Of a DNA stretch of 56,498 bases, positions 3,586 to 5,324 are shown in pieces. Under the pieces are notes generated by a model. It made no database searches and was not told the origin of the DNA. It saw nothing but the letters and a program-made list of their open reading frames with translations. Source of the DNA: Erysipelotrichaceae bacterium (GTDB taxonomy: Bacteria; Bacillota_I; Bacilli_A; Erysipelotrichales; Erysipelotrichaceae); NCBI GenBank assembly GCA_030525525.1, contig JAUNEN010000012.1:1-56498 (forward strand), given 5' to 3'. How positions within the stretch are numbered: position 1 is the first letter of the stretch; each line of letters starts with the position of its first letter. The translations under genes were made by a program, and so were the position numbers.

Positions 3586-3789
3586 ATGAAAGAAAAGACT
3601 CATCCGAAGTACTATCAGTGCAAAGTCACCTGCACCAGCTGCGGAAGCGAATTCATGACAGGCTCAACTCTGAAGGAAATCAAGGTTGATACCTGCTCAA
3701 ATTGCCATCCGTTCTACACTGGCCGTCAGAGATTCGCACAGGCACAGGGTCGTGTTGAAAAGTTCAATAAGAAATACGGACTTAAGTAA
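3586..3789 (+). CDS. rpmE: 50S ribosomal protein L31, zinc-binding type
   Basis: A 67-residue ribosomal protein of the large subunit that bridges the 50S and 30S heads. It is the zinc-binding (C+) form: Cys residues in [15 protein letters not shown] and in [13 protein letters not shown] supply the metal site. The C-terminal [20 protein letters not shown] is the typical end. A good ribosome binding site (AAGGGAG) lies 7 bases before the ATG. The gene sits between murA and the primary sigma factor and has its own terminator, as in related Gram-positive genomes. Zinc-independent paralogues usually exist elsewhere for zinc starvation. Confidence 0.97.
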
Positions 3790-3790
3790 G

Positions 3791-3813
3791 AAGCTGCTGA
3801 TTGCAGCTTTTTT
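3791..3813 (+). terminator. rpmE terminator
   Basis: AAGCTGC (3791-3797) pairs with GCAGCTT (3803-3809) with a 5-base loop, followed by T residues, immediately after the rpmE stop codon. Confidence 0.85.
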
Positions 3814-3854
3814 CTTTGCATTTTACAGATTGACCGGAAAATTAAATATATCCC

Positions 3855-4023
3855 TGATGAGAGGGCGGAGTGTATCGGTTCTGTGACTGAATAAATGTTA
3901 GCTTATATGTGCGAACACGATGTGTATGAAGCCTGCAGTTATGATTGCAGGCAGTCCTTAATCCAGCCCTCCCCAGGGAGGATAGAAGTCAGCTGGTCCA
4001 GCTGTTCTTCTGTCCTTTTTTTC
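3855..4023 (+). ncRNA. candidate structured RNA between rpmE and rpoD
   Basis: This 374-base gap holds no credible ORF but strong RNA structure. GAGGGC (3861-3866) pairs with GCCCTC (3966-3971), enclosing a GCCTGCA/TGCAGGC hairpin (3931-3937 with 3946-3952) and a small ACAC/GTGT hairpin. A very strong intrinsic terminator follows: AGGATAGAAG (3979-3988) pairs with CTTCTGTCCT (4007-4016), with an inner CAGCTG/CAGCTG stem, then a T-run. That fits a ~160-base independent transcript, or a leader with attenuator before rpoD. I do not recognise it as 6S, SRP, RNase P or tmRNA. Confidence 0.45.
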
Positions 4024-4097
4024 TTTTAATGATTCAAAGCAATCTGATGAAGACATCCGGTCAGGCATGTCACCTGTTTTGTGAATTTTCCTTCACT

Positions 4098-4125
4098 TTG
4101 TTGATTGGCAACCTTGTAGTAAAAT
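4098..4125 (+). promoter_or_regulatory. candidate rpoD promoter
   Basis: TTGTTG (4098-4103), 16-base spacer, TAAAAT (4120-4125), upstream of the sigma factor gene and after the strong terminator at 3979-4022. Confidence 0.5.
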
Positions 4126-4163
4126 AGAGTCAGCAATCTCTATAGACAGGAAAGGGAATCATA

Positions 4164-5324
4164 ATGAAAAACGAACAGAGCAAAACTCTGGATGCTGTCT
4201 GTAATGAATTTCTGGAAAAATCACAGAAAGGTGAGGAAATCTCACAGAAGGCTCTCATGGAAGAAGCTGAAAAGAACCATCTGAGCGAAGAAGAGGAAGA
4301 TCAGCTTTTTGAATGGGTGCAGCAGCAGGGAATATTCCTGATCAGTGATGAAGATATGATCGATGATGAGGAACCTGCAGACAGCGACGAGGACGAAGAA
4401 TTCAATGAAGAGGATGAAGAAGAGCAGGAAGATGAATCGCCGGAAGTCGATTCACCGGATCCGTATGTCGAAAAGGGCAGACGGAGAGTGCATTCCGATT
4501 CCGTTAAAATGTATCTGAAAGAGATCGGCGAAATCGATCTTTTGAGTGCGCAGCAGGAATATGATGTCGCCAAAAGAGTCGCCGAAGGTGATAAAGAAGC
4601 CAAAGAAATCCTGATTTCGAGCAATCTCAGACTTGTCGTCTCCATGGCAAAGGAGTATCTTAACCGTGGCCTTTCCTTTCAGGATCTCATCCAGGAAGGA
4701 AATATCGGTCTGATGCGGGCAGTTGACAAGTTTGATTATACAAAGGGCTTCCGCTTCAGCACCTATGCCACATGGTGGATCCGTCAGTCCATGGTCAGAG
4801 CAATTGCCGACCAGGCACGCGACATCCGTCTGCCTGTTCATATGACTGAACAGATCATGCGGGTCAACCGCGTACAGAGACAGCTGCTGCAGGAGCTCAA
4901 TCGTGAGCCCACCGTTGCCGAAATTGCCGCAAAGATTGAAGGCATGACACCTGAAAAGGTGATGGACATTCAGAAAGTCGGAATGGATCTGGTATCACTG
5001 GAATCTCCGGCCGGCGATGAAGAAAGCAGCACGCTCAGCGATTTTATTCAGGACACAACCGCGGTCGATCCGGTTGCCTATGCCAACAGCTCGGTACTGC
5101 GCGATCAGGTGGACAAACTGCTCAGGGAGCTGCCCGAGCGTGAAGAGAAGATTGTCAGAATGAGATTCGGTCTTGACGGCACCGGGAAAACAAAAACGCT
5201 TGAAGAAGTCGGCAATGAATGCCATGTGACCAGAGAGCGGATCAGACAGATAGAATCCAAGGCTCTGCGCCGTCTGCACCGCAGCATGCAGGTTAACAAG
5301 GAGTTCAGGGATCTCAGAGATTAA
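4164..5324 (+). CDS. rpoD: RNA polymerase primary sigma factor
   Basis: The 386-residue housekeeping (sigma-70, SigA) factor directs RNA polymerase core to TTGACA/TATAAT promoters. Region 1.1 (residues ~1-60) is followed by a very acidic linker (~60-100). Region 1.2 begins at [11 protein letters not shown], region 2 contains [19 protein letters not shown] (melting and -10 recognition), region 3 follows [11 protein letters not shown], and region 4.2 ends with the [22 protein letters not shown] that reads the -35 box. Length is normal. The gene starts after an AGGAAAGGG ribosome binding site and stops 12 bases before prfA, so the two are probably co-transcribed. The usual dnaG partner is not in the window. 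Confidence 0.97.

Follow-up and report, generated by a model that had tools for sequence, protein, structure and literature searches.

The window analyzed here is the whole stretch of 56,498 nt from an Erysipelotrichaceae bacterium that is uncultured. Its forward strand carries the ribosomal protein gene rpmE followed by rpoD, the gene of the primary sigma factor, and the gap between them (3787–4163) contains a structured element of ~160–170 nt (about 165 bases). An unassigned structured RNA had originally been predicted at 3855–4023; the letters of this interval match that description, while the element proper is confined to ~3861–4022. The following features are located in the region:

3586–3789, plus strand: rpmE (ribosomal protein bL31), upstream neighbour; open reading frame of 67 aa
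3788–3814, plus strand: rpmE terminator AAGAAGCTGC/GCAGCTTTTTT, from the terminator scan
3822–3852, plus strand: weak promoter-like pair TTTACA-N19-TATATC, from a PWM scan, with an inferred RNA start at ~3859–3861
3861–3869, plus strand: 5' arm of helix P1, GAGGGCGGA, start of the element; from the fold and arm permutations
3871–3924, plus strand: helix P2, TGTATCG GTTC ... GAAC A CGATGTG; helix kept, one-sided changes only
3931–3952, plus strand: hairpin P3, GCCTGCAGT-TATG-ATTGCAGGC, from covariation
3962–3971, plus strand: 3' arm of P1, TCCAGCCCTC, from folds and permutations
3966–3988, plus strand: C-rich box and terminator base GCCCTCCCCAGGGAGGATAGAAG, 23 nt identical in six carriers
3976–4022, plus strand: intrinsic terminator GGGAGGATAGAAG...CTTCTGTCC-T7, from the hairpin-plus-T-run scan
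4098–4125, plus strand: rpoD promoter candidate TTGTTG-N16-TAAAAT, downstream of the terminator, from the matrix scan
4164–5324, plus strand: rpoD (primary sigma factor), downstream neighbour; open reading frame of 386 aa
RNA segments bearing on P1 and P2: GCCCUC and UGUGACUGA

Homologous loci are found in five sister genomes, giving six carriers (the window genome G000 as well as G004, G043, G050, G054, and G068), and in each of them the element sits in the rpmE–rpoD gap. The rpmE orthologues of the five sister genomes exhibit 94–96% identity, and the nearest public records in the RpmE comparison are Solobacterium and Erysipelotrichaceae metagenome assemblies. In the window genome, the RNA terminator is separated from the rpoD promoter by ~62 additional bases (4023–4090), which are absent from the five other carriers. 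The element was originally described as lacking an open reading frame, and none is conserved in it: an ATG frame of 44 aa is present at 3895–4029, but it is not conserved, the homologous frame in G068 stopping after three codons (ATG ATA ACT TGA). A conserved short protein is thus not indicated by the sequences.

Fold, helices and conserved blocks

The predicted folding energy of the element is −63.2 kcal/mol, whereas shuffled sequences average −45.6 (z −4.37; 0 of 200 shuffles as good), and the five homologues reach z values of −3.4 to −5.1. Conservation among the carriers is concentrated inside the element, with 38% identity in the upstream flank, 97% in the core, and 82% in the C-rich box plus terminator. 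Two blocks, TGTATCGGTTYTGTGNCTGA and GCCCTCCCCAGGGAGGATAGAAG, vary hardly or not at all.

Covariation is found in the P3 hairpin, where all 36 cells are paired, two or three pair types occur at five of the six positions, and nine cells have changed on both sides. With helix arms picked by hand, the identity alone among 720 arm assignments reaches the observed score. The bases of P2, by contrast, are nearly invariant and therefore exhibit one-sided changes only, so that its pairing is likely rather than demonstrated by covariation; within it, the block TGTATCGGTTCTGTGACTGA (3871–3890) has 18 of 20 columns invariant in the six species, with some bases predicted to be partly unpaired. The long-range GAGGGC/GCCCTC helix of the original prediction (P1; 3861–3866 with 3966–3971) stands in the window species, where its predicted probability is ~1.0, but is only partly kept across the carriers. 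The exact pairing occurs in only two species and AGGGC/GCCCT in a third; P1 is predicted to be strong in G000, G068, and G054 and weak in G004 and G043. Its permutation signal is modest, as equally good pairing is reached by 20 of the 720 arm permutations, the true arrangement among them, and retesting without the constant GCCCTC gave no support (486 of 720 permutations as good).

The terminator was rightly placed among the strongest of the window, ranking third of 172 hairpin-plus-T-run candidates (−23.5 kcal/mol; best −23.8). Across the carriers it ranges from −19.7 to −25.7 kcal/mol, and its inner stem exhibits compensatory changes. In the non-carrier G031, another place (L098, 1227–1269) holds a terminator (AGGACAGAAG...CTTCTGTCCT) that differs little from that of the RNA.

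Distribution and comparison with known families

By blastn, the element is present in 6 of 70 genomes of the genus, the window genome and 5 of the 69 others. A covariance model built from the six carriers scores these at 148–161 bits and nothing else in the genus above 23 bits; the same search across 272 genomes of the family returned one further weak match (26.9 bits) with an unconvincing alignment. Both searches used Infernal's stricter filters, and a diverged copy could therefore escape them. Weak covariance matches in G016, G031, and G219 (22–27 bits) consist mostly of the terminator or align poorly and were not accepted as members. Among 315 genomes of the order, the core pattern was recovered from the six carriers only, and no copy of the 23-nt C-rich block within two mismatches was found in the 394 other genomes of a class-wide sample of 395, from which the other five carriers were absent. 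Searches of viral contigs, phages, and plasmids likewise came back without a copy.

The element appears to be restricted to one small group of related species. RpoD of the carriers is 85–89% identical to that of the window genome in its conserved part, as opposed to 75% or less for the others. In an RpoD tree from which five rows including the longest branches were left out, the carriers form one clade (99/97), whereas G045 and G049, two long branches, are placed within the group when all rows are kept. In the non-carriers of the genus that were examined, rpmE is followed by rpoD across a plain gap, or by another gene (e.g., prfA-like). In one of these, G035 (L152, 411–528), the gene after rpmE is not rpoD and is preceded by an FMN riboswitch (97.6 bits).

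Comparison of the window and the five homologous loci with Rfam 15 revealed no family at or above the gathering cut-off, and even at an E-value of 10 nothing credible was returned. The call of an unassigned structured RNA between rpmE and rpoD thus holds, since no known family was matched and, in the aligned gap of the relatives, both P3 and the inner stem of the terminator carry compensatory changes. The element is a real structured RNA of an ordinary kind, so far uncatalogued and restricted to one clade. A literature search for an RNA of such kind in the rpmE–rpoD gap or in the Erysipelotrichaceae found none among the papers covered. The element adds a well-bounded RNA with a defined core to a family for which little small-RNA literature was found, and it illustrates an RNA gene that was gained (or lost elsewhere) at one constant position next to the gene of the primary sigma factor. 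The two near-invariant blocks of the element provide a direct start for a target or partner search. Judged from sequence, the significance is probably modest.

Transcription and possible roles

Most probably, the element is a small regulatory RNA of the ordinary sort. Our tentative best explanation is a clade-specific structured small RNA gene of ~160–170 nt, flanked by the rpmE terminator on one side and the rpoD promoter on the other, and equipped with its own strong terminator. We infer that it is transcribed and, with at most moderate confidence, that it is a trans-acting small RNA. The transcript would end at its own terminator and regulate in trans, the likeliest effector site being the invariant C-rich box GCCCUCCCC adjoining the terminator. 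This box could base-pair with ribosome-binding sites rich in G, as many small RNAs of the Firmicutes do, and would be partly masked by the variable 5' arm (P1).

According to a published account (PMC9410917), exposed C-rich regions typify the small RNAs of Firmicutes. Like FsrA, RoxS/RsaE, and IsrR, the element is short, with stem-loops, a C-rich box that does not vary, and an intrinsic terminator, and may act on G-rich ribosome-binding sites; unlike them, its C-rich box directly abuts the terminator and is predicted to be partly paired, and it matches no Rfam family. The C-rich motif GCCCTCCCC is invariant in the six species and predicted to be unpaired only in part, the box being predicted largely paired in several of them. 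Start sites with GGGGAGGG amount to 28 raw matches in the six carriers (two of them the element's own complement) versus 26 in eight non-carriers, and such ribosome-binding sites are therefore not clearly commoner in carriers. Two recurrent cases are candidate targets only: a GGGGAGGG start site precedes an ABC exporter-like gene in G000, G043, and G054 (L213, L214, L216) and the gene of a 270-aa membrane protein in G050, G004, and G043 (L197, L208, L212).

How the element is transcribed bears on the next explanation, in which it is a 3' untranslated-region RNA of rpmE, a read-through product that is processed to a small RNA or retained as a tail setting mRNA stability. In the six carriers, neither the matrix scan, which used approximate sigma-A weights of our own writing, nor the alignment revealed a conserved promoter in the stretch that separates the rpmE terminator from the element, and the TTTACA-N19-TATATC pair of the window genome is not conserved. 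The rpmE terminator is, furthermore, only ~35–45 nt away from the element in G068 and G050. However, this terminator (hairpin plus T run) is kept in all six carriers, including all five sister genomes, and a promoter may be too degenerate for the scan; the window genome has a weak candidate. Since no conserved upstream promoter was found, the element may be transcribed either from a divergent promoter just upstream or by rpmE read-through. An rpmE-derived RNA is a serious yet rather unlikely alternative.

The original prediction offered an independent small RNA or an attenuating leader of rpoD; the former is favored and the latter disfavored. As a cis-acting, riboswitch-like attenuator, the element would sense a signal through P1–P3 and thereby set termination before rpoD. 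Its position upstream of rpoD, with a conserved folded domain followed by a strong intrinsic terminator, resembles terminator-type riboswitch and attenuator leaders, and the C-rich box could pair with either the P1 arm or the GGGAGG of the terminator base. Unlike in such leaders, rpoD has its own promoter candidate past the terminator. This sigma-A-like sequence, whose position hardly differs among the six carriers, lies within a conserved GTAGTAAAAT/GTAGTAGAAT block, with the start 205–210 nt after the core in five of them and 262 nt after it in the window genome, and is the top matrix match near rpoD in each (tied in the window genome). Nor did folding yield a mutually exclusive terminator and antiterminator. 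The sole candidate antiterminator hairpin, a CCTCC/GGAGG pairing, reaches only −8.0 kcal/mol, well short of the stability of the terminator; when it forms, a shortened terminator hairpin of −8.5 to −14.5 kcal/mol still stands, so that no effective antiterminator is seen. Because of the predicted downstream promoter, and because no copy of the element was detected in 64 of the 70 genus members, attenuation of rpoD is considered unlikely.

An RNA that exerts its effect chiefly through a protein or metabolite bound by the near-invariant P2 core, with no mRNA pairing, would account for the 18 invariant core columns, which include bases predicted to be partly unpaired. It would also fit the target search, as no antisense target of the near-invariant core common to all carriers was found with 14-nt segments and one mismatch allowed; most of the other 14-mer antisense matches of the core block fall within coding frames, and they do not recur in every carrier. 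On the other hand, no protein candidate is at hand and the C-rich box is equally invariant, which leaves this explanation quite improbable. More doubtful still is a new one-clade RNA class linking ribosome and sigma-factor supply, e.g., through contact with RNA polymerase or an effect on rpoD or ribosomal mRNAs exerted from its position between rpmE and rpoD.

A divergent form of 6S, SRP, tmRNA, or RNase P, into none of which the element had originally been fitted, is scarcely credible: its length and the pairing of a 5' arm with a 3' arm loosely resemble 6S RNA (RF00013; ~160–190 nt), but it is branched, with a separate hairpin and terminator, and matches none of these families even at an E-value of 10. 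The locus gave no RF00013 match, and a 6S-like gene is located elsewhere in the window genome (G000:C56:537–696, L010, minus strand), as it is at a separate place in five of the six carriers, the sixth genome being incomplete. Within the genus, 6S RNA (L010, L168–L177) scores 34–45 bits in 11 of 12 genomes tested, against an Rfam gathering cut-off of 46.4, and the Rfam 6S model thus appears to miss the 6S RNA of this clade.
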